DNA of 36,045 bases. It comes from Phycisphaerae bacterium (GTDB taxonomy: Bacteria; Planctomycetota; Phycisphaerae; JAAYCJ01). Positions 1 to 21,294 of this stretch are shown in pieces; the stretch's first letter is position 1, and each line of letters begins with the position of its first letter. Location: NCBI GenBank assembly GCA_012729815.1, contig JAAYCJ010000047.1:1-36045 (forward strand), given 5' to 3'. The position numbers and the translations under genes were made by a program. The notes beneath the pieces are model-generated. The model was not told the origin of the DNA and did no database searches. It saw only the letters and a list, made by a program, of their open reading frames with translations.

Positions 1-1547
1 TGGCCCAGTCGCAGGAACTGCTGATGGAGTTGAAGGGGTTCGCGGCGGCGGGCAAGCCGGTATTCGCCCATAGTGATACGAGCATGGGGCCCAGCTACAT
101 GGTGACGTTGCCGGCGCGGCGGATCGCGATGACTCCGGGCGCGACGCTGATGCTGTTCGGGGTGAATGCCCAGATGCTGTACTTTCGCGGGCTGATGGAC
201 AAACTCGGGATCGAGGCCGAGGCGATCCACATGGGGCAGTACAAGCTGGCGGCTGAGCCGTTTACGAACTACGAGCCGTCGGACGAGATGATCGAGCAGC
301 TCACAGCCCTGGTGGACGGCATCTATGGGCAGAGCGTGGCGGCGATCGCGGAAGGGCGCGGTCTGACGGCTGAGCAGGTGCGGGCGCTGATCGACGACGG
401 GCCGTATTTGGCCGAGAACGCGGTGGAGGCGGGACTGATCGACGCGGTGGCCCATCGCAGCGATTTCCTGGAGAGCGTACGGGAGGAGACGGGTGGGTAT
501 CTGGTGTACGACTACGGGCGGGCCAAGCCGCCGCAGATACGGCCGGGGCTGGCCGGGCTGATCCAACTGCTGACCTCGTTTGGAGCAGGCGGAGCGGTCG
601 AGGCGGAGAATAAGGTCGCGATCGTGCTGGTGGATGGGATGATCGTGGAGGGCGAGAGCGAGGAGTATTTCGGGGCCGACGGGACAGCGGGCAGCGAGAC
701 GCTTCGCAAGGCGTTCCGCGACATCGCCCGCGACCGGACGTACAAGGCGGTGGTGGTTCGGATCGACTCGCCGGGCGGGTCGTCGACGGCCTCGGAGATC
801 ATCTGGCAGCAGATTCGCGACGCGGCGGAGGACCTGCCGGTGGCGGTGTCGATGGGATCAGAGGCGGCCAGCGGCGGATACTACATCGCGGTGGCGGGTC
901 AGCGTATTTTCGCGGATTCGGCGACGATCACGGGATCGATCGGGGTGATCACGGGCAAGCCGATCTTCACGGAGATGCTGAACAAGCTCGGGGTCAACAC
1001 GTTCAGCGTGAGCCGCGGCAAGAACGCGGACCTGTTCGATCCGTTCTCGCGGTTCTCGGAGCACGGGCGCGAGACGCTGCTGCGGCAGATCGAGCGGATT
1101 TACGACCTGTTCGTTCAGCGGGTCAGGGAAGGGCGCGGCGAGCGGGTTGAGGACGTGGAACGTCTGGCCACCGGTCGGGTGTATACGGGGGCGGAGGCGG
1201 TGGAGCTGGGTCTGGTGGACGAGATCGGCACGCTGGCCGACGCGGTCGACTGGGCGGCGAGCGAGGCGGAGCTGGAGACGTACCAGGCGGTGCTGCTGCC
1301 GAAGCCCAAGAGCCTGCCGGAGATCATCCTGGAGAGCATCGGCTACGACGTGGACCCCGAGGCCCGGATGATGGGGCTGGCGGCGGCGCAACTGGCGCCG
1401 CAGGGCGGGGTGTTTGGGTCGTTGGCCGCCTATAATCTGCTTGCGGGCGGGCGGATGGATGCGCTGGCCCGCGTGTCGGTGGCGATCCGGCTCCTTGGAA
1501 GGGGCGACGCGCTGGCGCTTTGTCCGTGCCGCATCCGATGCGAATGA
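1..1547 (+). CDS. sppA: Signal peptide peptidase SppA, 67K type (5' end missing)
   Basis: Membrane-associated serine protease of the S49 family, which degrades cleaved signal peptides and some membrane proteins. The reading frame is open from base 3, so the N-terminus lies left of the window; the first internal ATG is at base 24. Both tandem S49 domains are visible. The N-terminal one carries the general-base lysine in the motif GQYKLAAEPF (codon about 74 from base 24). The C-terminal one carries the nucleophile serine in ASGGYYIA (codon about 283), preceded by IDSPGGSS. This two-domain Lys/Ser arrangement is the E. coli 67K form rather than the short SppA36K form. The stop lies 7 bases before the lnt start, so the two are probably co-transcribed. 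Family assignment is firm; only the missing start is uncertain. Confidence 0.93.
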   Translation, partial: AQSQELLMELKGFAAAGKPVFAHSDTSMGPSYMVTLPARRIAMTPGATLMLFGVNAQMLYFRGLMDKLGIEAEAIHMGQYKLAAEPFTNYEPSDEMIEQLTALVDGIYGQSVAAIAEGRGLTAEQVRALIDDGPYLAENAVEAGLIDAVAHRSDFLESVREETGGYLVYDYGRAKPPQIRPGLAGLIQLLTSFGAGGAVEAENKVAIVLVDGMIVEGESEEYFGADGTAGSETLRKAFRDIARDRTYKAVVVRIDSPGGSSTASEIIWQQIRDAAEDLPVAVSMGSEAASGGYYIAVAGQRIFADSATITGSIGVITGKPIFTEMLNKLGVNTFSVSRGKNADLFDPFSRFSEHGRETLLRQIERIYDLFVQRVREGRGERVEDVERLATGRVYTGAEAVELGLVDEIGTLADAVDWAASEAELETYQAVLLPKPKSLPEIILESIGYDVDPEARMMGLAAAQLAPQGGVFGSLAAYNLLAGGRMDALARVSVAIRLLGRGDALALCPCRIRCE

Positions 1548-1554
1548 TAGTCTG

Positions 1555-3273
1555 ATGAAAGCAGCGGCTCAAGGAAAATCGAGACTGGCGAAGGCGTGGA
1601 CGGCGGTGCTGACGTGGCAGAACGCTGTGTACCTGGGCCTCGCGTTGACCAGCGTACTGCTCTACTCGGCGGCGTACCCGCCGGTGGAGTTGTCCGGGCT
1701 GGCGTGGGCGGCGCTGACGCCGTGGCTGATGGTGGTTTTCATCTGTCCACCCGGGCGGCAGGTGATCATCAGCGCCATTGCGGGGATGGCGTTTTTCTTT
1801 CTGAATGTCTGGTGGATCGCACCGGTCACCATTCCCGGGTATATCACGATGAGCATCTACCTGGGGCTGTACTGGGCGTTGGCGGGTTGGGTGATCCACC
1901 GGCTGGTCAGGGTCAACCATTGGCCGGCGTTCGTGGCGGTTCCGGTGGTCTGGGCGGGGCTGGAGTATCTTCGGGCTTGGATGGTCACGGGTTTTCCGTG
2001 GTTCTTTCTGGGGCATTCGCAGGTCCGGAACCTGGCGATCATCCAGGTGGCGGATCTGGTGGGGGCGTATGGGGTGACGTTCCTGGTGGCGATGGTCAAT
2101 GGATTCTTCGCCGAGTTGATTTACCAGGTGTACTCGGGAGGCTGGCGGACGCGGCGCGGGGTGGTGGCGATCGCGGTGGTGCTTCCGCTGTTGAGCGGGG
2201 CGTTCATCTATGGAGTCTGGCGGCTGGGACAGGACACGGTGTACGCGGGCCCGCGGCTGGCGGTGGTTCAGGAGGATTTTCCGCTGACCGTCAACGGCGA
2301 GAGTCCCAGCCTGGGCAAGTCGCTTTCGGCGCATCTGAAGATTTCGCGTGAAGCGGCAGGGCAGGGCCCGGCGATGATCGTGTGGCCGGAGACGTCGATC
2401 GGCATCTCGCTGAATCCGGAATACCGTACGCATCCGACGGAGGACGAGGACCTGCGGGACGTTCAGGGGCTCAGCCAGCAGGTGTACGACGTGCTGAGCG
2501 AGCACGCCCGCGAGGCGCAGGCCCATCTGATCGTGGGCGCGATCAGCAAGGAGTTCAACACGCCCGGCACGTATCCGGAGGTCAACAAGTACAACTCGGC
2601 CCTGGTCTTCGCGCCGGACGGCGAACTGGCGGATCGCTACGACAAGATTCACCTGGTGCTGTTCGGGGAGTTCGTGCCGTTTCGGTACAGCGTTCCGCCG
2701 CTGTACCGGTTCCTCAACGAGAACATGACGCCGTACGGCCAGGGCGGGTATGAGTACAGTCTGACGCACGGGCAGGAGGTCAAGCGGTTTGAGCTGACAG
2801 CGGGCGGCGAGAGCTATCGCTACGGGGTGGCGATCTGCTACGAGGACGCGATGGCGTACCTGATCCGGCGGTTTGTCAGTCCGGAGAACGACCGCAAACA
2901 GATCGACTTTCTCATCAACATCAGCAACGACGGGTGGTTCAACCACAGCGCGGAGTTGCCGCAGCACTTGCAGATTTGCGCCTTTCGGGCGGTTGAGAAC
3001 CGTGTGGGCATCGCCAGGTCGGTCAACACGGGGATCAGCGGGTTCATCGACCCGACGGGCCGGATCGATGAGGTGGTGGGCAACGGGGCGTACGGGCGGG
3101 GCACGCGCGGATCGGTGGTCCGGGCGATCAAGCTGGACAAGCGGGTTTCTTTTTACAGCCGATACGGCGACTGGTTTGCTATAATCTGCCTGGCGGTGAC
3201 GGCGGCGGCGGCGGTCAAGGCCGACGCCGCATTCGGGAGAGTTTTGGGTCGAAGGACAACCACAACGCCATGA
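1555..3273 (+). CDS. lnt: Apolipoprotein N-acyltransferase Lnt
   Basis: Transfers the third acyl chain to the N-terminal cysteine of lipoproteins in the inner membrane, the last step of lipoprotein maturation in diderms. The 572-residue protein has six or seven N-terminal membrane segments, then a periplasmic nitrilase-like domain, then a C-terminal membrane segment. The nitrilase triad is visible as Glu279 (WPETS), Lys364 (YDKIH) and Cys428 (AICYED). The family motif GFPWFFLGHSQ is also present. A longer in-frame start at 1414 would overlap sppA and adds residues unlike the family, so ATG 1555 is chosen even though no strong ribosome binding site precedes it. The stop overlaps the next gene's start (ATGA), which indicates translational coupling to a lipoprotein that is a plausible substrate. 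Confidence 0.93.
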   Translation: MKAAAQGKSRLAKAWTAVLTWQNAVYLGLALTSVLLYSAAYPPVELSGLAWAALTPWLMVVFICPPGRQVIISAIAGMAFFFLNVWWIAPVTIPGYITMSIYLGLYWALAGWVIHRLVRVNHWPAFVAVPVVWAGLEYLRAWMVTGFPWFFLGHSQVRNLAIIQVADLVGAYGVTFLVAMVNGFFAELIYQVYSGGWRTRRGVVAIAVVLPLLSGAFIYGVWRLGQDTVYAGPRLAVVQEDFPLTVNGESPSLGKSLSAHLKISREAAGQGPAMIVWPETSIGISLNPEYRTHPTEDEDLRDVQGLSQQVYDVLSEHAREAQAHLIVGAISKEFNTPGTYPEVNKYNSALVFAPDGELADRYDKIHLVLFGEFVPFRYSVPPLYRFLNENMTPYGQGGYEYSLTHGQEVKRFELTAGGESYRYGVAICYEDAMAYLIRRFVSPENDRKQIDFLINISNDGWFNHSAELPQHLQICAFRAVENRVGIARSVNTGISGFIDPTGRIDEVVGNGAYGRGTRGSVVRAIKLDKRVSFYSRYGDWFAIICLAVTAAAAVKADAAFGRVLGRRTTTTP

Positions 3274-4286
3274 AACGTCACGGACGATGGTTCATCTGCC
3301 TGCTGGTCGGACTGGCGGCGGGATGTGCGCAGGTTCGGCCGCTTGGACCGGTGAATCCCGATCAACTGGCGGTTCGGGCGCGGCTGACTCTGGTCAACGC
3401 GATGGACGACCCGTCGCCGTTGATTCGGGCCCATGCGATCGAGGCGTTGGGCGAGGCGGGCCAGAGTTCGTCGGTGCAGTACGTCCTCATGGGATTGAGC
3501 GACAAGTATTGGGGCGTACGGTTTGCCGCGTGCATGGCTGTGCTTCGGATGCGGTATGAGCCGGCCAAGGGGTTGCTGGTCGAGAAGACGCGCGACCCGA
3601 ACCGGTCGGTTCAGGCGGCGGCGGCTGGGGCATTGCACGTGTTGGGCGATCAGCAGTACACGAGCATTCTGGGCGATACGCTGTTCGACAAGGACCCGGT
3701 GGTGCGGCGCAACACGGCGATGGTGCTCGGGCGGATGGGCGAGCCGGCGGCCAACAAGCTCCTGAAGCGGGCGCGGCTCCGCGACAAGGACCTGTCGGTC
3801 AAGCTCCAGGTGCTCGAGGCGATGACGGTTCTTGGCGATCGGCGGTCGCAGCGCCTGATGCTCAACTACTGCCGCAGCGGATACGACGATGAGATCGCGC
3901 TGGCGGTGCTGGCCCTGGGCCAGGCCAACTGCCAGGAGGCCAGGGAGCAGATCGTCTACGTGTTTGAGGATTCGAGCCGTTCCGGTCGTCTGGGGATGCG
4001 GCTGCTGTCGGCCCGCGCGTTGGCCATGCTGGGCGATGAGCGAGGTCGCGAGGATGCCCGCGGCGCCCTTGGCTATCGCCGCAGTACCAGTGCGACAGTA
4101 TCAGCACAGCAAATACGGCATCTGGCCGCGCTGGCACTGGCCGCGATGCCCGATCCGGACGATCTGCCGTACCTTGGGCCGTTACTGGACGATCCGGATC
4201 CTGATGTTCGGATCGCCGGCGCGCTGGCGATCCTGAAATCGGCGGGAAAAACGGCGGCGGCGGCGTCGCCCGCGCCTAGAATTTGA
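3270..4286 (+). CDS. HEAT-repeat lipoprotein
   Basis: A 338-residue predicted lipoprotein. The signal peptide ends in LAAGC with the lipidation cysteine at residue 19. The rest is built of helical HEAT/PBS-like repeats, recognisable from recurring segments such as RAHAIEALGEAG, VQAAAAGALHVLGD, VVRRNTAMVLGRMG and VRIAGALAILKSAG. Such repeats form a curved solenoid that usually binds other proteins. No catalytic motif is visible. The start codon overlaps the lnt stop by four bases, so it is very probably made from the same mRNA as the acyltransferase. The precise role is unknown; a scaffold or adaptor in the envelope is an inference. Lipoprotein and repeat calls are strong, function is not. Confidence 0.85.
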   Translation: MKRHGRWFICLLVGLAAGCAQVRPLGPVNPDQLAVRARLTLVNAMDDPSPLIRAHAIEALGEAGQSSSVQYVLMGLSDKYWGVRFAACMAVLRMRYEPAKGLLVEKTRDPNRSVQAAAAGALHVLGDQQYTSILGDTLFDKDPVVRRNTAMVLGRMGEPAANKLLKRARLRDKDLSVKLQVLEAMTVLGDRRSQRLMLNYCRSGYDDEIALAVLALGQANCQEAREQIVYVFEDSSRSGRLGMRLLSARALAMLGDERGREDARGALGYRRSTSATVSAQQIRHLAALALAAMPDPDDLPYLGPLLDDPDPDVRIAGALAILKSAGKTAAAASPAPRI

Positions 4287-4400: not shown

Positions 4401-6326
4401 ATGCGCATGACCAACCTTCGCCTTCCCGGTTCCGCCCTTGTTCTGGCCGTGGTTGTGTGGCTGGGCGCCGTTCCCAGCCTGGCCGCTGAGCGATCCAGCT
4501 ATTTCGACCCGGCGCGGCACATGGGGCTGGACAAGGTCAAACGCGGGATGAAGGGCTACGGCCTGACCGTGTTCGCGGAGAACAAGATCGAGCGGTTCGA
4601 CGTGGAGATCGTGGACGTGGTCCACAACTTCGGGCCGAAGTTTGACGTGATCCTGGTCAAACTCCGCGGGCACGAGTTGGAGCGGACGGGCGTGATCTCG
4701 GGCATGAGCGGATCGCCGGTCTATCTGACCGACCCGGAGGACGGGAACGACAAACTGATCGGGGCGATCGCCTATGGCTGGGAGTTCAACGCGCCCGGTC
4801 CGCCGATCGGCGGGGTTCAGCCGATCGAGCACATGCTGGACGTGGACGTGTCGGCCAAGCCGAGCGGTCAGCAGGTGGTTTCGACGCATCGGCCCGGCGT
4901 GTTGACGCGGCAGTTGCTCAGCCGTCTGCCCGGAACGAGCCTGATGACCGATGAGGGCCGTCAGGGCCGGTTTGCGATGGCGGGTCTGATCGATTTGACC
5001 GACGCGCAGACGCCGGCGGCGGGCGGTTTGTCGAAGGCCGCTTCGTCATTCAACCCGGGTCTGGTTCCTCTGGCGACGCCGCTGAGCGCGGCTGGGCTGG
5101 ACCGCGGGTTGTTTGCGGCGCTGGCGGAGAGTCTGGGCGGCTACAACATGCTGGCGGTGGCGGCGGGCGGCGCCGGATCGGCGCCGCAAGGCGCGCCGAA
5201 GATGGAGCCGGCGGGCGTGCTCGGCATTCCGTTCGTTCAGGGCGACCTGGCGCTGGACGGGATCGGCACGATCACCGAGGTCATCGGCGATAAGGTCTGG
5301 GCGTTCGGGCATTCGATGTTCGAGCAGGGCGAAATCGAGATGCCGATCTCCGGCGGCTACATCCACAGCATCATTCCGAACCAGATGTCGTCGTTCAAGT
5401 TCGGTTCGTGCGGCGAGCCGATCGGCACGCTGCGCAGCGACGAGCGGGCGGCGGTGCTCGGCGTGGTCGGCAAGAGCCCGAAGATGATCGACCTGTCGGT
5501 CCGCGTGGATCTGGACGGGGCCGTTCGCGAGTACAACTACCAGTTGGCCACGCATCACGAGTTTCTGCCGATGCTGACGTTGATCTGCGCGGCGAACTCG
5601 ATCATGGCCCACCACAACCTGCCCGAGCTGCACACGGTGGAGTACAAGGGCTCGGTGGCGTTCGACGGTCTGGGCCGCATCGAAGTCGGCAGCGTCAGCA
5701 GCATGATGTCGATCATGCCGATGCTCACTGACGTGGTGGACCCGATCGACCTGATGCTCAACAACCCGTACTCGCGGGTATTGCCGGACCGGATTGACCT
5801 GGACGTCAAGATCCGGCCGGAGTGCTGTCTGACCTCGGTCATCCAGGCCCGCACGGACAAGGAATGCTACAAGCCGGGTGAGACGGTCCGGATCGACCTG
5901 GACCTTCAGAAGTACCGTGGCGACCGGTTCAGCCATCGGATCGAGTACACGATTCCGAAGGACCTGCCGGACGGGCGGTACGATCTGGTCTTGGGCGGAC
6001 TGAACGCGGCGATCCTCGCCGACCGGCAGAACTATCCGCACCTCTACGCCCCACAGTCAAGCCAGGGGTTGTTCCGGCTGGTCGAGCACGTCAGCCGGAT
6101 ACGCGGCGACTGCCTGTACATAGCCCTGAATAACCGCCGATCCGGCATGGGCATCAGCACGCACGCGCTGCCCGATCTGCCGGGCTCGAAGCTGGCACAG
6201 TTCGAGGCGGCCGATCCCGGCCTGGTCAAGCGCATCAACTCGTGGCAGGTCGTCACCTTCCCGGCGGATTTCTACATGAGCGGCGTTCAGAAGTTCGCCA
6301 TCGACGTCTCACGCGAAAAAATCTAG
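4401..6326 (+). CDS. Secreted SpoIVB-like peptidase S55 domain protein
   Basis: A 641-residue exported protein with a signal peptide of about 29 residues (cleavage near PSLAA). Residues about 40-145 contain the S55 hallmark, with KRGMKGYGLTVF leading to GVISGMSGSPVY and LIGAIAYGW; Ser103 aligns with the nucleophile of GDSGGP-type proteases. Residues about 281-360 carry the second part of the fold: GDLALDGIGT, then WAFGHSM with His304 in the position expected for the catalytic histidine, then SFKFGS and IGTLRSDERAAVLG. The C-terminal 250 residues look like beta-rich domains. In SpoIVB the histidine comes before the serine; here the order is reversed. A GAGGG site 6 bases before ATG 4401 supports the start, and ATG 4407 is an alternative. 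The product is probably periplasmic. No sporulation role is implied. Confidence 0.82.
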   Translation: MRMTNLRLPGSALVLAVVVWLGAVPSLAAERSSYFDPARHMGLDKVKRGMKGYGLTVFAENKIERFDVEIVDVVHNFGPKFDVILVKLRGHELERTGVISGMSGSPVYLTDPEDGNDKLIGAIAYGWEFNAPGPPIGGVQPIEHMLDVDVSAKPSGQQVVSTHRPGVLTRQLLSRLPGTSLMTDEGRQGRFAMAGLIDLTDAQTPAAGGLSKAASSFNPGLVPLATPLSAAGLDRGLFAALAESLGGYNMLAVAAGGAGSAPQGAPKMEPAGVLGIPFVQGDLALDGIGTITEVIGDKVWAFGHSMFEQGEIEMPISGGYIHSIIPNQMSSFKFGSCGEPIGTLRSDERAAVLGVVGKSPKMIDLSVRVDLDGAVREYNYQLATHHEFLPMLTLICAANSIMAHHNLPELHTVEYKGSVAFDGLGRIEVGSVSSMMSIMPMLTDVVDPIDLMLNNPYSRVLPDRIDLDVKIRPECCLTSVIQARTDKECYKPGETVRIDLDLQKYRGDRFSHRIEYTIPKDLPDGRYDLVLGGLNAAILADRQNYPHLYAPQSSQGLFRLVEHVSRIRGDCLYIALNNRRSGMGISTHALPDLPGSKLAQFEAADPGLVKRINSWQVVTFPADFYMSGVQKFAIDVSREKI

Positions 6327-6354
6327 TACCGCAGCTATAGCAGGAGCACAGACG

Positions 6355-8604
6355 ATGAAGAATCTTGCCGTGGCGATGCTCGCCGTGTTGCTGGGCCTCT
6401 CGCAGGCCGCCGCCGTTTCCACGAGTTTTTTCGAGGACACCGAGGCGGCGGACTTCAAGAAAGGGCAGTACGAGGACGTCCTGATCAGCAACGCCGGGTA
6501 TATCGCGCTCGGGCTGACCAGCGAGGTGCTGCTGGGCGACCGGGCGGACGTCAGCGCGGTCTACGCGATCGACCAGCTCAGCGATGGCGCGGTCGTGGCG
6601 GGCACCGGTCCGGACGGCAAGGTGTTCAAGCACGTGGACGGGGCGTGGCAGGAGCTCTTCAAGGCCGATCAGCCTTACGTGGTTTCGATGGCGGTTGGCG
6701 CTTCGGACAAGCTGTACGTGGGCACGGCGGGCGACCAGGGGTTGATCTATGAGATTGCGCCCGACGGCCAGAGCAAACGGATCTTCCAGCGGGAGGGAGT
6801 CAACTACATCTGGGCACTGCTGCTGGTGGATGGCGGCCGACTGCTGGCGGCGACGGGGCCCAACGGGCAGGTGTTCCAGATCGACGAGTCCGGGGCGAGC
6901 GAGGTTTTCTCGTGCGAGCAGAAGAACATCATCGCCATGACGGGCGGGCGCGAGGGCATGGTATACCTCGGGACGGACACGGACGGAATTCTGTACGTGC
7001 TTGAGCCGGATGGCGGAAAGTACCGCTCGCGGGCATTGTACGACGCGCAGGAAGACCAGATTTCGGCGTTGACCGCCGATCCGGACGGGATCGTCTATTT
7101 CGCGACGGCTTCGGGCAAGGCGGCGCCCGGCGAGGCGAGGGCGTTCCTGGAGCGGGCGCCCGGTTCGCCGGCCACGCAGCCGAGCGGCGCGTCGGGCTCG
7201 GGGGCGGAGAACTCGGGCAACGCGAACCAAACCACCATGGCGGCTCCGAGCCGTTCGGCCTCGTCATCACCGGCGATGGGGCGAGTGCCTTCGGGCAACG
7301 GGAAGCAGAACGCGGTGTACCGGCTGGACCGGCTGGGGTTTGTCAACGAGGTCTACCGCGACCAGCTTGATTTCAACGATCTGCTCTTCCACGACGGCGC
7401 GCTGTACGCGGGCACGTGGCCTGACGGCTGGGTGTTTGAGATTCTGCCGGAACGTGAAGAGGTCCGGACGGCGGCCAAGGCCGAGGCGAAATTCGTCTAC
7501 GATCTGGCGCCGGGACGGAACGACGCGTTGTTGGTGGCGACCGGATCGCCCGGCGGCGTGATACGGCTGGGACCGGGTCTGGCCGGCACGGGCACGTTCA
7601 CCAGCCAGGTCTTCGACGCCGAGCAGATCGCGGGATGGGGCAACATCTTTGGCGAGTTCGCGGACGCCTGCGCTCCGGATGTCTGTCCGCAGGTCCAGAC
7701 CCGCAGCAGCGCCATTCAGGATGACGACGACCCGGCCTGGTCGGCTTGGTCGGAGCCGCGGAGCCTTTGCGAGCCGCAGCGGATCCTTTCGCCGAGCGGG
7801 CGGTTCATCCAATACAAGATCACGTTCGCTCCGAAGGGCGATGCGACGGCGAGGCTTTCAGCGGTGAAGATCGCATACCTGGTTCCCAATCAGCCGCCGC
7901 TGATCGAGAGTCTGCAGGTGCTGCGGCCTGGCGAGCGTCCGGGCGGCAACAAGATGAACAGTGTTCCGCCGCCGCCGCAGCCGCAGCCGAACGGACCGGC
8001 GCCGAAGCTGCGTCAGTACAAGCTGATGTGGAAGGCGAGCGACGCCAACGGCGACACCCTCACGTATGACCTGTACGCCCGTCTGGCCGGCGCGCCGTAC
8101 TGGTTCCGGATCGACCAGGATCTTCAGCCGACGAACTACCAGTGGGATCCGACGGCGGCGCCGGACGGCGAGTACATCTTCAAGGTCGTCGCCTCGGACC
8201 GCCAGGACAATCCGCCGGACATGGCGATGGAAAGCGCGCGGGTTTCGGATCCGGTGCTGGTGGACAACACGGCGCCGCGGGTGGTGGGCCTGGAGACGGA
8301 GCGGCTTGAGACGGGCGATCTGCTGGTCAAGGCCAATCTGGTGGACGAGCTGTCGCTGATCGAGAAGGCCTACATCCGCATCAACGCGCAGGATGAGTGG
8401 CTCTACCTGGCCCCGGCGGACGGGATCTACGACAGCAGGAGCGAGTACGTGGAGACGATCGTGCCGGTTCCGGATGAGGGGCCGGTGCTGATCTCCATCA
8501 AGGTTGACGACGACAGCGGCAATACCGGATTTGGCCAGATGATCGTCCCGGAGGCGGTGCCGGTTCCGGCGCAAACGGCGGCGGAGGCCAGCGAGCAGAC
8601 GTAG
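6355..8604 (+). CDS. Secreted propeller-like protein with C-terminal Fn3/Ig-like region
   Basis: A 749-residue protein with a clear signal peptide (about 20 residues, ending SQAAA). Residues about 60-480 show repeated units of the form GxxPDGxVFxxxxG and YVGTAGDQGLIYEIxPDG, typical of beta-propeller blades. A low-complexity Ser/Gly/Ala/Asn-rich insert follows at about residues 255-310. Residues about 500-720 resemble two Fn3 or cadherin-like beta sandwiches (KLMWKASDANGDTLTYDLYAR, then DGEYIFKVVASDRQDNP). No enzyme motif is evident. It lies 28 bases behind the S55 peptidase gene with a GGAG ribosome binding site, so the two probably form an operon. It could be a substrate, inhibitor or partner of the peptidase; this is inference only. 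Confidence 0.72.
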   Translation: MKNLAVAMLAVLLGLSQAAAVSTSFFEDTEAADFKKGQYEDVLISNAGYIALGLTSEVLLGDRADVSAVYAIDQLSDGAVVAGTGPDGKVFKHVDGAWQELFKADQPYVVSMAVGASDKLYVGTAGDQGLIYEIAPDGQSKRIFQREGVNYIWALLLVDGGRLLAATGPNGQVFQIDESGASEVFSCEQKNIIAMTGGREGMVYLGTDTDGILYVLEPDGGKYRSRALYDAQEDQISALTADPDGIVYFATASGKAAPGEARAFLERAPGSPATQPSGASGSGAENSGNANQTTMAAPSRSASSSPAMGRVPSGNGKQNAVYRLDRLGFVNEVYRDQLDFNDLLFHDGALYAGTWPDGWVFEILPEREEVRTAAKAEAKFVYDLAPGRNDALLVATGSPGGVIRLGPGLAGTGTFTSQVFDAEQIAGWGNIFGEFADACAPDVCPQVQTRSSAIQDDDDPAWSAWSEPRSLCEPQRILSPSGRFIQYKITFAPKGDATARLSAVKIAYLVPNQPPLIESLQVLRPGERPGGNKMNSVPPPPQPQPNGPAPKLRQYKLMWKASDANGDTLTYDLYARLAGAPYWFRIDQDLQPTNYQWDPTAAPDGEYIFKVVASDRQDNPPDMAMESARVSDPVLVDNTAPRVVGLETERLETGDLLVKANLVDELSLIEKAYIRINAQDEWLYLAPADGIYDSRSEYVETIVPVPDEGPVLISIKVDDDSGNTGFGQMIVPEAVPVPAQTAAEASEQT

Positions 8605-8687
8605 GCCGCGGTCCAGATCGGCGTGAACATCAAACATCGCGGCGAGAACTGCTCCGCCAAGGATATGAACCGTTTGCTTTGACGGTG

Positions 8688-8705
8688 GATCGCCGGCTGG
8701 CGATC
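8688..8705. terminator. Small hairpin between convergent genes
   Basis: A perfect 7-base inverted repeat (GATCGCC / GGCGATC) with a 4-base loop lies at the convergent ends of the propeller gene and spoVG, overlapping the spoVG stop codon. No U-tract follows on either side, so it would be at best a weak or factor-assisted terminator. Confidence 0.3.
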
Positions 8706-9171
8706 AGTGCTTGGCGGTTCCGCCGCGTTCCTCGGGCTCGTGCCCTGTGTCGTATCCGTAGTCTTCGTCCATGCGGGTGGGGACGTAGTCCGGAGACTTG
8801 GACCTCTCCAATTCTTTTTCATAGGCGTCCAGGACCGCGTCCTGAATCCGCTGACGGCACTGGGGGTTGATCGGGTGCGCCACGTCGGCGTGAAGCTTGA
8901 CGCGCCCGGTATCGTCCTTGGGAACGCGGGCGTCGGGCAGGCGGGTTCCGCACTCGTTGCAGAATTTGGCCCGCAGATGGTTCTTGGCGCCGCATCGCGG
9001 GCACTTGTCGGCGAGCTTGCGGGAGGGCATGGCCACGAAGGGGCCCGACGCACCGTCAATCACCTTGATGTCGCGAACCACGAACTCTCCGTCCAGCGTG
9101 ACGGTGCAGAAAGCCTTGAGGCGTTCGGCCCTGATGTCCACCAGCTTGACCTTCACTTCGGTTACTTGCAT
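8704..9171 (-). CDS. spoVG: SpoVG family RNA/DNA-binding regulator with inserted zinc ribbon
   Basis: A small nucleic-acid-binding regulatory protein. Residues 1-52 match SpoVG closely (VTLDGEFVVRDIKVIDG, FVAMPSRK), and residues about 95-118 give the rest of the core (DVAHPINPQCRQRIQDAVLDAY). In Bacillus SpoVG these are joined by a short loop. Here the joining segment is about 40 residues and contains CPRC-x10-CNEC (Cys57, Cys60, Cys71, Cys74), a classical zinc ribbon. The acidic, disordered C-terminus is usual for the family. Start ATG 9171 has a GAGGG site 7 bases upstream. It is 28 bases downstream of ispE, the same order as in many Gram-positive genomes, and is probably co-transcribed. 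Family call is firm; the target nucleic acid is unknown. Confidence 0.92.
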   Translation of the reverse strand: MQVTEVKVKLVDIRAERLKAFCTVTLDGEFVVRDIKVIDGASGPFVAMPSRKLADKCPRCGAKNHLRAKFCNECGTRLPDARVPKDDTGRVKLHADVAHPINPQCRQRIQDAVLDAYEKELERSKSPDYVPTRMDEDYGYDTGHEPEERGGTAKH

Positions 9172-9199
9172 CGTTGAGCCCTCGAGAAGTTCCTCTCCG

Positions 9200-10126
9200 T
9201 CACCATGGGTTGTTTCTGACCAACCAGGTGGCCAGATGCGGGTGTGAGCGATTGATCCGCCGCCTCAGTCGATCGGCCTGGTCGCGAGAGTCGAGGATCG
9301 CGAACATGGCCGTTCCCGATCCGGACAGCCGGACGGGCGTTTCCGACAGCGATTCAAGTTCCTCACGAAGCTTGCCCAAATCCTGATTGGCGCGAAAGGC
9401 CGCGGCCTCCAGATCGTTGCGGAAACGCTCCGCCGCTTCGGAGGCTCGTTGGCCCGGAAGCTCTCGCGCCAGATCGTCAGCCAGTCCCAAACAGCAGGGA
9501 TCGCTCACCCGATGGTAACGGTATACCTGTTCTGTCGCCAACCGCTCGACCGGCTGGATGACCACGGCCCAGAAGTCCCAGCCGTCCAGCGGTTCCACCA
9601 ACTCACCTCGACCCCGGCAGATCGCCATGGGGCCCAGGAGGAAGAATTTGACGTCCGAACCCAGCACCGCGGCGACTTCGCCGAGGCGCTCCGGGTTCAG
9701 GTGGAGATCCCAGAGCTCGTTGAGACCCACCAGGGCCGCGGCGGCGTCCGCACTGCCGCCTCCAAGCCCGGCCTGCATGGGAATGTGTTTTTCGAGATGA
9801 ATCGCTACGGCCGGGCTGACCCTTCCGTACCAAGCCAGCAGCGAGGCGGCCCGGTAGATCAGGTTGCGGCTGTCGGTGGGTACGGCCGGGTCGTCGCAGG
9901 TAATCCGGATTCCCGGGTCCGACCGGCAGACGCGCAGCGTGTCAGACAGAGTGATGGTGGTCATCAGGCTTTCGAAGGCGTGATAGCCGTCGGGACGCAA
10001 TGCGCCCACGGCCAGCGAGAGATTCAACTTGGCCGCGGCACGAACCAACAACTCGCCGTCGACTTGCCGAAGACGCGGTCTTAACGCCACACTGTTGTCC
10101 ACGTCGCCCTGATGCACGGGGCACAT
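9200..10126 (-). CDS. ispE: 4-diphosphocytidyl-2-C-methyl-D-erythritol kinase IspE
   Basis: Phosphorylates CDP-methylerythritol in the MEP pathway for isoprenoid precursors. GHMP-kinase motifs are all present: RAAAKLNLSLAVGALRPDGYH near the N-terminus, the ATP-binding loop PMQAGLGGGSADAAAAL, and the C-terminal RLSGSGTAMFAI. Two starts are possible. GTG 10156 has no good ribosome binding site, whereas ATG 10126 has GAGG spaced 6 bases and is preferred (308 residues). Even this start leaves about 25 residues before the conserved core, more than in E. coli IspE. It is the first gene of an ispE-spoVG unit driven by a near-consensus promoter about 170 bases upstream. Confidence 0.92.
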   Translation of the reverse strand: MCPVHQGDVDNSVALRPRLRQVDGELLVRAAAKLNLSLAVGALRPDGYHAFESLMTTITLSDTLRVCRSDPGIRITCDDPAVPTDSRNLIYRAASLLAWYGRVSPAVAIHLEKHIPMQAGLGGGSADAAAALVGLNELWDLHLNPERLGEVAAVLGSDVKFFLLGPMAICRGRGELVEPLDGWDFWAVVIQPVERLATEQVYRYHRVSDPCCLGLADDLARELPGQRASEAAERFRNDLEAAAFRANQDLGKLREELESLSETPVRLSGSGTAMFAILDSRDQADRLRRRINRSHPHLATWLVRNNPW

Positions 10127-12050: not shown

Positions 12051-12099
12051 TCCACACAATCTTAGGATGGTTTCGGTCGACTGGATCCTCAGCGGATGG

Positions 12100-12888
12100 T
12101 CAGATTCTGTCGCTCCGACCGGCTTCGATATAGTTCATTCCCATCTGATCGAGCCCGAGGATGACCTCGGCGGCCATGACCAGGGGCAACGTTCCTTCGA
12201 CGGTGGGATCGATGATGACCGAATCGAGACCCGCCCCGATGGCCAGGACCAGGTAGGCCTGGTTGACCCACTTGCGTTTGGGCAAGCCGTAGCTGGAGTT
12301 GCTCACGCCGCCGGTGATGTGAAGCTGGGGCCATTTCTGGCGCATCCACCGGATGGCCTGGAGGACGTCGAGGCCGGCGTTGGCCTCGGTATAGACGGCG
12401 AGGAAGCAGGGATCGACGTAGATTTCATCGATTTTCTTGCCGGCATCCTGGAGCTTGCCGATCAGTTCCTCGGCCCGCTGCTTGCGGTCGTCGAGGGAGG
12501 TCGGGACGCCGGCGTCGCTCATCAGCAGGGCGATGACCCCGCATTCGTGATCCTTGACGAGGGGCAGATACTGCTCGAGACGGTCCTTTTCGAGAGAGAC
12601 CGAGTTGATGATGGGCTTCTGCTTGACGAGCTTGAGGCCTTCCTGAATGGCTTTGGGATTGGCGCTGTCGAGCACCACGGGAAGGTTGACGGTCTCCTGG
12701 ACGATTTCGAGGAGCCAGCGGACGGTTTCGATTTCGCCGGTGGGATGTCCGCCGTTGATGTCGAGGTAGGCGGCGCCGGCTTGGGCTTGGATGCTGGCCA
12801 GGTCCGCGACGGCGTGGCGATCCCTGGCCTCGATGGCCGCTCCGACCTGTTTGCGCGTCGCGTTGATCTTCTCACCGATGATGATCAT
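12100..12888 (-). CDS. Methyltetrahydrofolate:corrinoid methyltransferase family protein (AcsE/MeTr-like)
   Basis: A 262-residue single-domain pterin-binding TIM barrel, the size of AcsE/MeTr and of MtvB-like corrinoid methyltransferases. Motifs include IIIGEKINATRK at the N-terminus, AYLDINGGHP, PVVLDSANPKAIQEGL, INSVSLEKDR and GGVSNSSYGLPKRK; the Asn of the last motif aligns with the residue that contacts N5 of the folate in the Moorella enzyme. There is no cobalamin or homocysteine domain, so it is not MetH. A GTG at 12891 is only 3 bases from the AAGGAG site, while ATG 12888 is 6 bases away and is preferred. The downstream metF-type gene would supply methyl-THF. The corrinoid partner is not in the window, so whether this serves acetyl-CoA synthesis or methylotrophy is open. 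Confidence 0.85.
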   Translation of the reverse strand: MIIIGEKINATRKQVGAAIEARDRHAVADLASIQAQAGAAYLDINGGHPTGEIETVRWLLEIVQETVNLPVVLDSANPKAIQEGLKLVKQKPIINSVSLEKDRLEQYLPLVKDHECGVIALLMSDAGVPTSLDDRKQRAEELIGKLQDAGKKIDEIYVDPCFLAVYTEANAGLDVLQAIRWMRQKWPQLHITGGVSNSSYGLPKRKWVNQAYLVLAIGAGLDSVIIDPTVEGTLPLVMAAEVILGLDQMGMNYIEAGRSDRI

Positions 12889-13057
12889 CACGTGCTCCTT
12901 GATCGCTGGATCGCGGTATGCTGCCGTCGTTGGAATACAGAATACCGGCGTGTCCGCGGGAAGGCAAGCACAAATTATCCAAAGTGGATTTAATTGGGCG
13001 AATCGGCGATACTGGGGGATGTGAGGGGATCCTGAGGCGGGCGAATCAAAGAAGCAG

Positions 13058-13673: not shown

Positions 13674-14642
13674 TTACCACGCCCACGAGAGGGCCATGCC
13701 GCCCCAGAACTGGTCTTCAAGCCCGGTGTGCTCGGCCGATTCGGTAGGGCAGGTGTAGAAGAGCATGCCGCTGATGGCCACGGTTCCGGCCCATTCGGGC
13801 AGATGGAGCAGGGAGGTCATGTCGTAGGTCAGGTCGAGGCCCAGCTGGGTGTAGGCGTAGCGGAAGTCATGGTCGTCAGTGCCCAGGAGGGGTCCCAGGT
13901 AGCTGCCGTCGATGGCGAAGATCGCTGAGGGAGTCAACACCAGGTCGTCAGTGAGGGCAAAGGGGTGATTGATTCCAAACTCCATCCAGGCGCCGCGGGC
14001 GAGTTGCATGTCGTGGGCGAGGAAGAAGGACGGGTTGAGGATGCCGTCTTCGCCTTCGTAGCCGACCGATCGCCACATCCAGGCGTCGTTGTGCTCGAGC
14101 CTGACGAACCACTCGTGGGTCCGGTCGTTGTCGCCGACGCCCTGGACGTTGGGGAACACGAACATGGTCCATCCGAGGGTGGCGGTGGTGGCGATCCGTT
14201 CGAGGTCGTAGCTCCACCAGATGGTGTAGTCGATTTCCTGAGTGTTGTCGGAGGTGGTCGGGTTGATCTTCTCCTGGTCGGCATACCACTCGAAGAAAGT
14301 GTCAAACCCGACGGTGCCGTACTTGCCGCCTTCGCCCAAGGGGACACCCATGGTGGTGACGAGCTGATGATTGGGCTTTTCCCGGCCTTCCCTCTCGTAT
14401 TCGGAGAAGTTGATGCCGCGGAAGATGTAGTCGCTGAGCAGATAGGAGGTAACTCCCAGGCCGACGGGCCTTCCCGCTTGCGGCTCCTCGACCGCGGTTT
14501 GGGGCTCGGTCACTTCTTCGACCCCTTCGGTCAGGCCAGGTTCCTTGACCTCTTCGCCGACGGCCGGAGCGGCCAAGGCGGCCAGCAGCAACAGGACCGC
14601 CGGAGCGGTCAGGGAGGGACAGTTACGCAGGTTCGATCTCAT
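13674..14642 (-). CDS. Outer-membrane beta-barrel protein, TorF/Gcw_chp porin-like
   Basis: A 322-residue protein with a signal peptide (residues 1-28, LLLLAALAAPAVGEE) and then an acidic linker rich in Glu and Val. The barrel begins with VTSYLLSDYIFRGINFSEYERE, like the SDYVFRG opening of Gcw_chp/TorF-type putative porins. Alternating hydrophobic and polar strands with many aromatics follow, and the protein ends in the aromatic residue pattern GMALSWAW expected for BAM-inserted barrels. ATG 14642 with GGAGG 7 bases upstream is chosen over the longer frame from 14753, whose extra residues look non-coding. It implies an outer membrane. The transported substrate cannot be inferred. No neighbouring gene is clearly linked. 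Confidence 0.75.
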   Translation of the reverse strand: MRSNLRNCPSLTAPAVLLLLAALAAPAVGEEVKEPGLTEGVEEVTEPQTAVEEPQAGRPVGLGVTSYLLSDYIFRGINFSEYEREGREKPNHQLVTTMGVPLGEGGKYGTVGFDTFFEWYADQEKINPTTSDNTQEIDYTIWWSYDLERIATTATLGWTMFVFPNVQGVGDNDRTHEWFVRLEHNDAWMWRSVGYEGEDGILNPSFFLAHDMQLARGAWMEFGINHPFALTDDLVLTPSAIFAIDGSYLGPLLGTDDHDFRYAYTQLGLDLTYDMTSLLHLPEWAGTVAISGMLFYTCPTESAEHTGLEDQFWGGMALSWAW

Positions 14643-14969
14643 CAGAGTGCCTCCAAAAACTCGCGGACACCAAGGCGCCGGTTGCCGCGACCGTACGGCA
14701 CGGTTGCGGTGTTGACGCCAGTCAGCGGCCGATGCCGGCCGTGATAGCACCATCAGGGACTGCCGTCCGCCGACCGCTGAGGGCGACGGGCGTCCGCTCC
14801 GCTTGGTGGCGAAGCCGTCGCGTTAGTGAATAGCAACGGCTGTGCCAGAGGCTGGAAAAAGAATCCAGAGCCTGTTACGGCACCAGAGAGGCAGCTTGGC
14901 GGCTTGATGATGGTGGCGACGTTGTACGGTTTTGTAGCCGGCGGGCTCGGATCGACGTTTTTGTCGATG
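14643..14969. other. Hairpin-rich intergenic region
   Basis: This 327-base gap separates the unassigned large gene from the porin-like gene, both on the minus strand. It has no convincing ORF. It contains several hairpins: 14685-14709 (CCGC-x-ACCGT loop ACGGT-x-GCGG), 14727-14740 (GGCCG loop CGGCC), 14842-14883 (GTGCC/GGCAC enclosing CTGGA/TCCAG), and 14951-14968 (ATCGAC/GTCGAT) beside the upstream gene's stop. The last two may end the upstream transcript and the first two lie in the porin leader. It matches no riboswitch class I know. Confidence 0.4.
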
Positions 14970-17003
14970 TCAGCGACCGGACAGGATCAGCCAGTCATTG
15001 CCGACCATTTCCGTCGTCACAGCCATTCGGCGTGGATCGGTAAATCTGACGCTGACGGGGCAGTCGCGGCCGTGGAGGGCCTGGGACCAGTCCAGGGAGG
15101 TCCACCCCTGGGGTACGAGCAGTTCGATGCGGTCGTAGACTTCGAACATGGCGTTGGCCAGGAAGATGGTTTTGACGTCGGCTGAGGAGCGAGCGGAGAT
15201 GTAGACCCACGGTGCTTCGACCAGACGGGGCAGGTTGGCGGCTGCCCCAAGTTCTTCGAGCCATTGGTCAAGCCAGAGCTTTCGGAATCGCGTGTAGAGG
15301 CGGATCGGCGGTGGCAGGGGGGTGGGCAGGACGATGCCTTTGCCGCCGCGGTCATTGGCGTAGGCGTAGCTGCCCGTACCGAGCGGCTGGAGGTCGGCGT
15401 CCAGGACACGGGTCTTGGGTTGGGCGGATGGGGCGGTCTGATAGAGGGCGATCCGGTAATCGGGATCCTCGTCGATCGCGTTGATGCTGGCGCGCTGCGG
15501 GACCCTGTCCGGCGGGACTTCGAGGGCTTCTTCAAGGATGAAGGGGCGCTCGTGGTGGCCCAGACGGGTGAGGGCTTCCAGACCGATCAGTCGGCCGAGG
15601 CCGCGCCGGTGGATAATCTCAGCGGCGATCGCATCGAGGAGGACGGTGTTGTGGGAAAGCAGGTTCTCGAGGGTGTCCTGGGCGAAGGTCCAGACGGAGG
15701 GTCCGGCCAGCGCGCAGAGGCGGTCAGGGCCGATGCGGTCACAGCGGGTTTGGACCGTGCAAGGATAACCGCAGGCCTGGAGATAGGTGAACCATCCGTA
15801 GTGAATGGTTGGGATGTGGAATGGGTTGGGCGAGCCGGAACCCGGAGCGGCTGAGGCGGTTCCCAGCGGTTGGAGGCAGAGGACACCGAGCGGTTGAGTG
15901 TCGCGGACCTGTTCCCGGAGAGTCAGGAGCTTGTCCTTCTGCGCGGCAAGCATGGGAGCGACCGTCGGTTCACTGACCGGTCCGCTGCCCAGGAAATCGA
16001 GCACGTCGAGGGTCAGGCCGTCGCAGCCGCCTTCGATGGCGAAGGCCATCTGCATGGCGGTCTGCTGCGAGGACTTGGTGAAGCGGGACGTGGGGGCGTT
16101 TTCGAGTTCGAAGAAGGTTTTGGTCCCTCTGGGCAGGGCGTTGAGGGTGGCTGAAAGGTTGCCAGCGGGGTCGATGATCCCGTTGCGGCTGGCTTCGGCG
16201 TATCCGGCGGCGTGGGGGCGGACCGGAACCCGTTGCGGACCGCCGAGGGTTTCGATGAGAGTGGCCCAGTCGCGGCCTTCGACGTCGTGGCAGGCCATGT
16301 GGCTGGTCATGAGGCCGAGCGTGATCCGCGGGTCGATGGCGTCCATGGCCTGACGAAGCTGACGGGCGATGTCGATCTGGGTTCGGCTCATCAGTCGCTG
16401 CCAGATGAGGCGGTCGCCGTGGACCTTGTCGGCGGCGTTGAGGTTGGCCAGCAGTTCCTGGCGGCTGGCCGCCTCGGCGCCGCAGCGGCGGAGTTCGCGG
16501 ATGTGCTCGTCGCAGAAGCACCCGCCCCAGGCCCCGTAGCCGTGGTTGTGGAAGCGGAAGTCATCCTCGATCCAGAGGGTTCGAAAACCGGCTCCGGCGA
16601 AATCGGTGAAGGCGTTGACGAAGAGCCTCTGCCACTGCGGGCAGAGCGGGCAGGCGACGGAGAGGCAGGTCTGGCCGGTGTCGAGGACCATGCGGCGATA
16701 GTGGAGATCCAGACTGCGGCGGCCGCGGTCGATGTGCAGGAGGGTGTGCCAGGGGTTGATGCTGGCGGCCAGGCCGGCCTGCTCGACGATGGCTTTGGCC
16801 TCGGCGGCGAAGTCGAGCCAGGGGCGGTAGTCGCTCTGGCGCCACTGGCCGCGGTTGTACTCCTCGGGCAGGAGGAAGAACATGACTTCGTCAATTTTGG
16901 CGTCGCGGCAGAACTGCTGGAGGCGGTGCAGACGCTGCGGTCTGACCTCGACGGGCTCTGGCGGCAGTGAATAGCGGATGATGTAGAGATTCGGCCGGTT
17001 CAT
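14970..17003 (-). CDS. Uncharacterised protein, probable TIM-barrel glycosidase-like fold
   Basis: A 677-residue protein without signal peptide, so probably cytoplasmic. It opens with a beta strand and helix (PNLYIIRYSLPPEPVEVRPQ). Strand-end acidic motifs suggest a glycosidase TIM barrel: RTLWIEDDFRFHNHG around residue 150, ITLGLMTSHMACHD around 230, and TKTFFELENAPTSRF around 300. CFCDEHIREL resembles a pattern seen after the acid/base region in GH42/GH10-like proteins. A middle alpha/beta region (residues about 390-520) could be a glutamine-amidotransferase-like domain as in GH42, and the C-terminal 150 residues look beta-rich. ATG 17003 with GAGGA upstream is chosen over the frame start at 17099. 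I cannot name the family or substrate. It is divergent from the cytidylate-kinase-like gene. Confidence 0.6.
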   Translation of the reverse strand: MNRPNLYIIRYSLPPEPVEVRPQRLHRLQQFCRDAKIDEVMFFLLPEEYNRGQWRQSDYRPWLDFAAEAKAIVEQAGLAASINPWHTLLHIDRGRRSLDLHYRRMVLDTGQTCLSVACPLCPQWQRLFVNAFTDFAGAGFRTLWIEDDFRFHNHGYGAWGGCFCDEHIRELRRCGAEAASRQELLANLNAADKVHGDRLIWQRLMSRTQIDIARQLRQAMDAIDPRITLGLMTSHMACHDVEGRDWATLIETLGGPQRVPVRPHAAGYAEASRNGIIDPAGNLSATLNALPRGTKTFFELENAPTSRFTKSSQQTAMQMAFAIEGGCDGLTLDVLDFLGSGPVSEPTVAPMLAAQKDKLLTLREQVRDTQPLGVLCLQPLGTASAAPGSGSPNPFHIPTIHYGWFTYLQACGYPCTVQTRCDRIGPDRLCALAGPSVWTFAQDTLENLLSHNTVLLDAIAAEIIHRRGLGRLIGLEALTRLGHHERPFILEEALEVPPDRVPQRASINAIDEDPDYRIALYQTAPSAQPKTRVLDADLQPLGTGSYAYANDRGGKGIVLPTPLPPPIRLYTRFRKLWLDQWLEELGAAANLPRLVEAPWVYISARSSADVKTIFLANAMFEVYDRIELLVPQGWTSLDWSQALHGRDCPVSVRFTDPRRMAVTTEMVGNDWLILSGR

Positions 17004-17034
17004 GATTGATGGTCCTCGATCAAGATCTCCGGCC

Positions 17035-17062
17035 ATTATATCGTTTGGTCGGGCGGCGTCGA
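17035..17062 (-). promoter_or_regulatory. Promoter with perfect -10 for the unassigned large gene
   Basis: Minus-strand TATAAT (17035-17040) is preceded at 16 bases by TCGACG (17057-17062). The start near 17027 gives a leader of about 24 bases. Confidence 0.5.
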
Positions 17063-17108
17063 GGGCGAAGCGTTTCGGCTGCAGTTTTCGCTGTCGCACT
17101 GGTGTTTT

Positions 17109-17986: not shown

Positions 17987-18406
17987 ATGGGACGAGCAAG
18001 CAATCGGCGGAAGCTGAGCTACAAGCCGGTGATCATCGTGGCCGCGGTGGCGTTTCCGGTGTTGGCGTTGATGGCGTGGGCGTTGTGGCCGAGGCCGGAG
18101 GAGAAACTGGTTTTCGAGAAGGGGCCGGATTTTGCGGCGGTGCTCAGCGAGCACGGGACGTTTCACGTCGGGTGGGCGACGAACGCGGAGTCTCACTCCA
18201 TGCTGTTCTACCGTTTCGAGCCGGGTCAATCGTACCGGACGATCGCTTCGGGGCCGGCGCGGGAGCACCGGGTGGCGGTGCCGGGTCGGGCGGGCCAGCA
18301 GGTGGAGTTCCACGTCGAGGCTTCAGGGTTGAGGCAGACGATTGATTCCGACGTATACCGGGTGACGCTTGAGGTCCCACCCGCCAGTCAGGCCGCCGGG
18401 CCGTAG
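17987..18406 (+). CDS. Small membrane-anchored protein with beta-sandwich-like domain
   Basis: A 139-residue protein. A basic N-terminus (GRASNRRKLSYK) is followed by one hydrophobic segment (residues about 14-34, PVIIVAAVAFPVLALMAWAL), then about 100 residues outside the cytoplasm. The latter part has alternating strands (FHVGWATNAESHSMLFYRF, EHRVAVPG, VEFHVEASG, DVYRVTLEVPP), which suggests an Fn3 or purple-acid-phosphatase N-terminal-like sandwich. GAGAGG lies 6 bases before the ATG. It sits between the kinase-like gene (10-base gap) and mutS2 (8-base gap), so all three are likely one operon, with no evident functional link. I do not recognise a named family. Confidence 0.65.
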   Translation: MGRASNRRKLSYKPVIIVAAVAFPVLALMAWALWPRPEEKLVFEKGPDFAAVLSEHGTFHVGWATNAESHSMLFYRFEPGQSYRTIASGPAREHRVAVPGRAGQQVEFHVEASGLRQTIDSDVYRVTLEVPPASQAAGP

Positions 18407-18414
18407 CAGGATTC

Positions 18415-20328
<1,914 letters not shown>

Positions 20329-20355
20329 TCGGCGCATGGCTGGTCCGCAGAATTG

Positions 20356-21294
20356 ATGGGACGCATGGCTGACGATCTTAAGGAGACAATCCGGCAGGCG
20401 GCGTTTGAATTGGGGTTCGATCTGGCGGGTATTTCGGCGCCGAGAGTCGAGTCGCGGTATCGCGAGGCGTATCTGGACTGGATCGAGCGGGGGCGGCAGG
20501 GCGGGATGGGCTACATGGCGCAGAATCTCGATAAGCGGCTCGATCCGGGCCGGCTCGTGGCTGGGGTTCGGTCGGTGCTTTGTCTGGGAAGCAGCTACCA
20601 TCAGGAGGCGGCGACCCCGGATGGCGGCGGGCGGGTGGCGATGTATGCGTGGGGAAGGGACTATCATCGAGTGCTCAAGGACCGGTTGCGGCGGTTGGCC
20701 GTGCGGCTGAGCGGGATGGCGGGGCGGGAGGTGCGGTATCGGGCGTTTGTCGATAGTGCGCCGGTGCTGGAGAAGGCGTTGGCGGAGCAGGCGGGACTAG
20801 GATGGATCGGGTCGAACGGGTGCCTGATCAACCGGCGGCTCGGTTCGTTCTTCTTTCTGGCTGAGTTGTTTGCTGACCTGGAACTGCCGGTTGACCAGCC
20901 GGCGAAAAACCACTGCGGTGCGTGCCGCAGATGTGTGGATGCGTGTCCGACCGGGGCGATTGTCGCGCCGGGCGTGGTGGATGCGCGGCGGTGCATTTCG
21001 TATTTGACGATCGAGCATCGGGATCGGATCGATCCGACGCTGGCTGGGAAGGTCGGGCCCTGGATCTTCGGCTGTGATGCGTGTCAGGCGGTCTGTCCCT
21101 TCAACCGCTTCGCCAAGCCAACCCGAATTGACGAGTTTCGGCAGCACCGCTTGGGTCCGCGGATTGATCCGGCGGAGGCGGCGCGATGGACGGACGAGCA
21201 GTATGAAGCCCGCACCGCCGGTTCCGCCGGTGCTCGCGCGACGCTGGAGATGTGGCGGCGCAATGCCGGTCTTGTCGCCGGGCCGGGCGATTGA
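20356..21294 (+). CDS. queG: Epoxyqueuosine reductase QueG
   Basis: Catalyses the last step of queuosine synthesis in tRNA, reducing epoxyqueuosine with cobalamin and two [4Fe-4S] clusters. The protein is about 312 residues, shorter than E. coli QueG because C-terminal HEAT-like repeats are absent. The N-terminal cobalamin-binding part has LGFDLAGISAP, SYHQE and MYAWGRDYHRVLK; the catalytic-type Asp lies in RAFVDSAPVLEKALAEQAGLGWIG. Cluster ligands are CGACRRCVDACPTGAI and CDACQAVCPFN. The start is uncertain: ATG 20356 and ATG 20365 are both possible, neither with a good ribosome binding site. It lies 27 bases behind mutS2. Cobalamin dependence fits the corrinoid-type methyltransferase elsewhere in the window. 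Confidence 0.92.
   Translation: MGRMADDLKETIRQAAFELGFDLAGISAPRVESRYREAYLDWIERGRQGGMGYMAQNLDKRLDPGRLVAGVRSVLCLGSSYHQEAATPDGGGRVAMYAWGRDYHRVLKDRLRRLAVRLSGMAGREVRYRAFVDSAPVLEKALAEQAGLGWIGSNGCLINRRLGSFFFLAELFADLELPVDQPAKNHCGACRRCVDACPTGAIVAPGVVDARRCISYLTIEHRDRIDPTLAGKVGPWIFGCDACQAVCPFNRFAKPTRIDEFRQHRLGPRIDPAEAARWTDEQYEARTAGSAGARATLEMWRRNAGLVAGPGD

Follow-up and report, generated by a model that had tools for sequence, protein, structure and literature searches.

A SpoIVB-related (S55) peptidase from a planctomycete with its two half-barrels in exchanged order: a probable ancient circular permutation of the clan PA fold

In SpoIVB of Bacillus subtilis, His236 precedes Ser378. The window analysed here, a stretch of 36,045 nucleotides from a Phycisphaerae genome, contains a peptidase gene of the same general kind whose translation (ORF 4401-6326) places GMSGSPVY at residues 101-108 and WAFGHSM at residues 300-306, so that Ser103 comes before His304, as the preliminary description had claimed. 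This locus raises the question of whether the two catalytic halves of an S55 peptidase have been exchanged along the chain and, if so, whether the protein would still operate as a serine peptidase and by what route the new order arose. The features on which the answer depends are the following:

4401..6326, + strand: permuted S55-type peptidase gene, an ORF of 641 aa with an ATG start, matched by PF05580 at residues 52-125 and modelled with AlphaFold2 (AF2)
4401..4484, + strand: probable signal peptide, residues about 1-28, assigned by inspection (hydrophobic helix 10-22 in the model, then SLAAERS)
4527..4838, + strand: Ser barrel, residues 43-146, counterpart of the clan PA C-terminal barrel by AF2 strands, VIA and HHalign
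4701..4718, + strand: GMSGSP motif, residues 101-106, with the predicted nucleophile Ser103 at 4707-4709
4839..5201, + strand: variable linker, residues 147-267, which connects the former C-terminus with the former N-terminus and contains a short conserved beta-alpha-beta element at 221-255
5202..5474, + strand: His barrel, residues 268-358, counterpart of the N-terminal SpoIVB barrel by AF2 strands, Foldseek and HHalign
5304..5312, + strand: FGH motif, with the predicted general base His304 at 5310-5312
5439..5441, + strand: Asp347, proposed as third member of the triad at the place held by Asp102 in chymotrypsin, aligned with SpoIVB Asn290
5481..5822, + strand: beta-grasp-like domain, residues 361-474, from weak VIA matches
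5826..6323, + strand: MG2-like beta-sandwich with helical inserts, residues 476-641, from VIA and a sub-threshold Pfam MG2 match

The source genome (5.47 Mb, 367 contigs) has a single copy of the peptidase detectable with PF05580. Upstream on the same strand, at 24-4286 (+) of the window, lie genes for a SppA-like signal peptide peptidase, an apolipoprotein N-acyltransferase and a HEAT-repeat protein, an envelope-flavoured cluster which is unconserved among distant relatives of the peptidase locus. No sporulation genes occurred among the neighbour genes examined. The ORFs at 12067-12993, 13674-14753, 14970-17099 and 18388-20667 (308 to 759 aa) gave no Pfam match at E 0.01.

Relatives were collected at 80 loci on GTDB contigs and, in addition, in whole genomes belonging to the same class, the same phylum and two other phyla, and 178 distinct proteins made up the conservation set. 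In all 178 a single Ser barrel comes first and a single His barrel second, so the order proposed from the single sequence is fixed in every homologue examined; the distance between Ser and His varies from 148 to 222 residues, as expected of a linker. No intermediate of permutation by duplication, which would carry one His or Ser barrel too many, was found among these sequences, and the long versions (L105, L109, L212 and L213) also have one barrel of each kind and no other. One of them, the 1006-aa frame of L212 (G137:C89), is planctomycete and carries about 470 extra residues ahead of the Ser barrel, with a propeller ORF next to it. A second PF05580 match in genome G009 (L211, 853 aa) was rejected as a family member, being an HtrA-like protein with a weak match only. 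The same alignment bears on a rival reading, an ordinary peptidase in the SpoIVB order whose true histidine lies ahead of Ser103. No conserved histidine stands there, the highest column reaching 22% (residue 95) against 100% at position 304, and the 42-residue stretch from the signal peptide to the barrel is too short for a further barrel. Conservation refutes this reading, which is now scarcely credible.

The relationship to SpoIVB was examined at several levels. PF05580 matches the peptidase at E 8e-9 and 36.3 bits (curated cut-off 25), covering only positions 123-192 of the 210 in the profile, which correspond to the Ser part, with no full-length collinear match; 77 of the 80 relatives match at E 0.01, their span being confined to about 92-209 of the profile. 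As a control, a SpoIVB from a Monoglobus plasmid covers PF05580 from 2 to 209 as one piece. The SpoIVB equivalog model TIGR02860 is matched at 312-377 of 402 with 31.9 bits, its cut-off being 305. As the protein lacks a collinear domain match and stays below the equivalog threshold, it is not a plain member of the S55/SpoIVB family.

Direct comparison used as references the B. subtilis sequence of PDB 9lnf (motif mutated) and three clostridial SpoIVBs from plasmid records. With phmmer, residues 45-127 of the peptidase were placed on positions 223-300 of the 9lnf chain and, weakly, residues 287-344 on positions 121-178, the two blocks thus lying in exchanged order. HHalign of the 80-sequence profile with the four SpoIVBs gave the same arrangement, pairing residues 55-123 with 9lnf 228-292 (97.8%) and residues 284-359 with 9lnf 114-202 (26%, pairwise E 7e-4). 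When the halves were run separately, the probability was 98.4% for the Ser half and 60.5% for the His half (pairwise E 8e-5), and the linker and C-terminal part showed no match to SpoIVB (0.1-0.2%). An HMM of the His half, searched against 10,004 sequences of which all except the SpoIVBs were shuffles, ranked three of the four SpoIVBs within the top four (E 0.003 to 0.2). From these block matches and HMM results, homology with SpoIVB can be regarded at the sequence level as certain for the Ser half and as moderately supported for the His half.

In clan PA proteases, the first barrel carries His at its third strand and Asp at its sixth, and the second barrel carries Ser at its fourth (PMC6524800). 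An AlphaFold2 model of the peptidase, computed with the 80-sequence alignment (pLDDT 88.6, pTM 0.88), contains a Ser barrel with strands at residues 51-60, 62-78, 81-89, 106-110, 117-127 and 136-141, Ser103 lying just before strand 4, and a His barrel with strands at 273-281, 284-295, 298-301, 310-325, 332-347 and 352-356, where His304 follows strand 3 and Asp347 ends strand 5, just before strand 6. The modelled barrels thus display the clan PA strand pattern with the barrels exchanged. Together with the fixed order and the relationship of both halves to those of SpoIVB, the two barrels support the permuted S55 fold that had been suggested for this protein.

A related reading is an oligomer with swapped domains, in which each active site joins a Ser barrel and a His barrel from different subunits, although the genetic order would be exchanged in this case as well. 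The long flexible linker (residues 147-267), whose pLDDT is low at 151-220 and which is ordered in the model at 221-255, would permit such a swap; however, the single-chain model packs confidently without a partner, and neither the fixed single-copy barrels nor the fusion to a propeller protein described below gives any hint that an oligomer is needed, which makes this arrangement quite unlikely. Mean-field covariation on the 178 sequences (Neff 147) agrees weakly with barrels packed against each other: of the 128 strongest pairs, 14 join the Ser and His barrels where 9.2 would be expected, an enrichment comparable to that of some other domain pairs, and these 14 include pairs around Asp347 (140-348, 148-351 and 72-348) and others where the His barrel begins (123-275 and 125-272).

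Structural searches were made with each half. Residues 38-154 were aligned by VIA-align with the C-terminal barrel of DegQ (Z 7.3, rmsd 2.8, 103 aligned residues) and also with the C-terminal barrels of AlgW, norovirus protease and SpoIVB (313-426; Z 6.1, 27% identity). When the His barrel was modelled alone (pLDDT 94), Foldseek ranked SpoIVB 9lnf at the top (prob 1.00, 18% identity, 94 columns) and placed several clan PA proteases after it, amid mixed matches. VIA set the same barrel on the C-terminal barrels of Spl proteases, with Z up to 7.5, a placement that cannot assign barrel identity because both clan PA barrels are homologous and share one fold. Queried with the whole model, the fold search aligned just one of the barrels, which is what sequential aligners would be expected to do.

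These results also bear on independent assembly, by which two clan PA half-barrels would have been joined in the opposite order, or SpoIVB itself would be the rearranged protein. The similarity of the clan PA barrels to one another, in ancestry and in structure, leaves room for this idea, as does the merely moderate likeness of the His half to SpoIVB. However, SpoIVB is the best real match for both halves, by sequence and by Foldseek, the signatures GxGTxT...GH and GMSGSP...GA are common to the two proteins, and the His barrel comes first in every other clan PA family (PMC6524800), which indicates that the swapped order is the derived one. Independent assembly is thus considered unlikely, and circular permutation of an S55-type ancestor is preferred.

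Beyond the barrels, VIA paired residues 361-472/474 weakly with the beta-grasp that ends staphylococcal superantigen-like proteins (Z 5.2-5.6), and residues 476-641 with MG domains from complement C3/C5 and from alpha-2-macroglobulin (Z about 5.1-5.5); as these Z values are low, the names beta-grasp-like and MG2-like describe fold only. A local resemblance to SpoIVB had suggested residues 361-400 as a relic of a second Ser barrel, a candidate rejected at an HHalign probability of 0.1%, the region being predicted as beta-grasp-like.

The residues invariant in all 178 proteins are Ser103, Gly104, Ser105, Pro106, Gly303, His304, Gly342 and Asp347, and the sole other acidic position conserved above 85% is Asp282. 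His304 and Asp347 are 43 residues apart, a spacing kept in 174 of the proteins and changed to 44 in the remaining 4; in chymotrypsin the corresponding distance is 45 (57 to 102). Many secreted clan PA proteins are pseudoenzymes, and the peptidase might accordingly be a non-catalytic scaffold that has retained S55-like motifs, but Ser, His and Asp never vary across the many phyla sampled. This makes a scaffold very improbable, and the protein very likely works, as predicted, as a clan PA serine peptidase.

The third residue of the SpoIVB triad is disputed. In the crystal structure, Asp363 lies about 24 A from His236, and Thr393 was proposed to fill the role (PMC12502668). Both HHalign and HMMER align Asp347 of the peptidase with SpoIVB Asn290 in a gap-free block (IGTLRSDERAAVLG / IGDINRNSPFGIFG), and this position is occupied by Ser in one of the three remaining SpoIVBs and by Asn in two. 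The alignment of an invariant Asp347 with Asn290 suggests that the permuted branch of S55 keeps the usual clan PA aspartate and that SpoIVB probably replaced it. Mention of Asn290 was found neither in the crystal paper (PMC12502668) nor in a further SpoIVB paper, and the invariance of Asp347 provides a direct prediction on the disputed triad.

By submitters' titles, the permuted peptidase occurs in Planctomycetota, Acidobacteriota, Myxococcota, Gemmatimonadota, Poribacteria, Sumerlaeota and Latescibacterota, and further in WOR-3, Zixibacteria, Cloacimonadota, a Spirochaetes MAG and others. The preliminary description had placed it in a non-sporulating diderm lineage; the permuted form itself is borne out, but its confinement to one such lineage is not, given the many phyla. 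Frequencies differ among groups. In Acidobacteriota (the phylum of L052, by title), 112 of 119 sampled genomes carry it. The phylum to which L090, a Myxococcales MAG, belongs has it in 25 of 78 genomes, the window's phylum in 38 of 149, and the near relatives of the source genome in 41 of 61. In the 119 genomes sampled from each of Planctomycetota and Acidobacteriota, all PF05580 matches fall in the Ser part (within 92-209), and no collinear full match was found. No SpoIVB relatives were found in viral contigs.

A tree of 80 rows, in which the window lies among Planctomycetota, requires 12 changes of phylum label, against a minimum of 11 and a mean of 34.7 after shuffling. Such sorting by phylum points to an old permuted form that was passed down mostly within phyla. 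Two loci, L074 (titled Latescibacterota) and L083 (titled Gemmatimonadota), are nearly identical, indicating that at least one of these public labels is probably wrong.

Directly downstream of the peptidase lies its most constant neighbour:

6355..8604, + strand: partner gene, encoding a secreted beta-propeller and Ig-like protein of 749 aa, with a homologue conserved downstream across phyla

A propeller homologue is present directly 3' of the peptidase on the same strand in 61 of the 75 loci with enough sequence, the gap being usually within 60 bases or replaced by an overlap, and no other neighbour gene is as constant. Most partners contain, according to Pfam, propeller repeats (Reg_prop) and bacterial Ig-like domains, and phmmer linked the partner in the window to the PQQ-type propeller 3hxj. 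In L109 (= L214; titled Chloroflexi bacterium), peptidase and propeller are fused at 5989-9864 into one ORF of 1296 aa, with the peptidase at residues 4-608 and the propeller at 666-1295. Constant adjacency and this fusion constitute good evidence of a functional pair, in which the propeller protein probably binds, presents or regulates the substrate. The conserved partner defines a widespread, uncharacterised envelope protease system.

The best explanation, held with high confidence, is that the window encodes an exported clan PA serine endopeptidase related to S55 (SpoIVB), with half-barrels exchanged by an ancient circular permutation and a predicted conventional triad. The chain would run from the Ser barrel through a linker of roughly 120 residues to the His/Asp barrel, and then to the beta-grasp-like and MG2-like domains. 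The two barrels would pack face to face as in SpoIVB, bringing Ser103, His304 and Asp347 together as a putative charge-relay triad at their interface. The permutation may have been a single event in a deep ancestor, followed by inheritance within phyla, and its outcome would be a two-gene unit with the secreted beta-propeller/Ig protein. The wider proposal, which combines a phylum-deep natural permutation, a full S-H-D triad, an envelope protease-propeller system and the loss of the triad Asp in SpoIVB (now Asn290), is considered reasonably probable as a whole. A permutation stable in several phyla, and nearly universal in sampled Acidobacteriota, suggests that the chymotrypsin fold tolerates half-swapping, and the family offers a natural test of how chain order matters for zymogen-like activation and for the interface between the barrels.

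Proteins named "SpoIVB peptidase S55" were noted as widely present in Acidobacteriota (PMC8841776). These are very likely the permuted family, because all PF05580 matches sampled in that phylum are permuted, and the permutation explains why databases annotate such proteins from half a domain. In the literature found, neither the permutation nor the propeller partner is mentioned for these annotations, and no relevant report of permuted chymotrypsin-like proteases or of permuted S55 was found in the open-access literature. Compared with SpoIVB of B. subtilis (MEROPS S55, 9lnf), the peptidase has in common the GMSGSP nucleophile motif, the GxGTxT...GH histidine motif and two beta-barrels, both halves being detectably homologous. 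It differs in the exchanged order of the barrels, in having beta-grasp-like and MG2-like C-terminal domains and no PDZ domain detectable by Pfam, in its invariant Asp347 where the four SpoIVBs compared have Asn or Ser, and in lacking the Thr393 of the proposed SpoIVB triad, replaced by Ala or Tyr. With other clan PA proteases, such as DegQ/HtrA, Spl and the 3C proteases, the modelled protein shares two six-strand barrels, with His after strand 3 and Asp before strand 6 of one barrel and Ser before strand 4 of the other; in those proteases, however, the catalytic residues follow one another along the sequence as His-Asp-Ser, and in the permuted peptidase as Ser-His-Asp.
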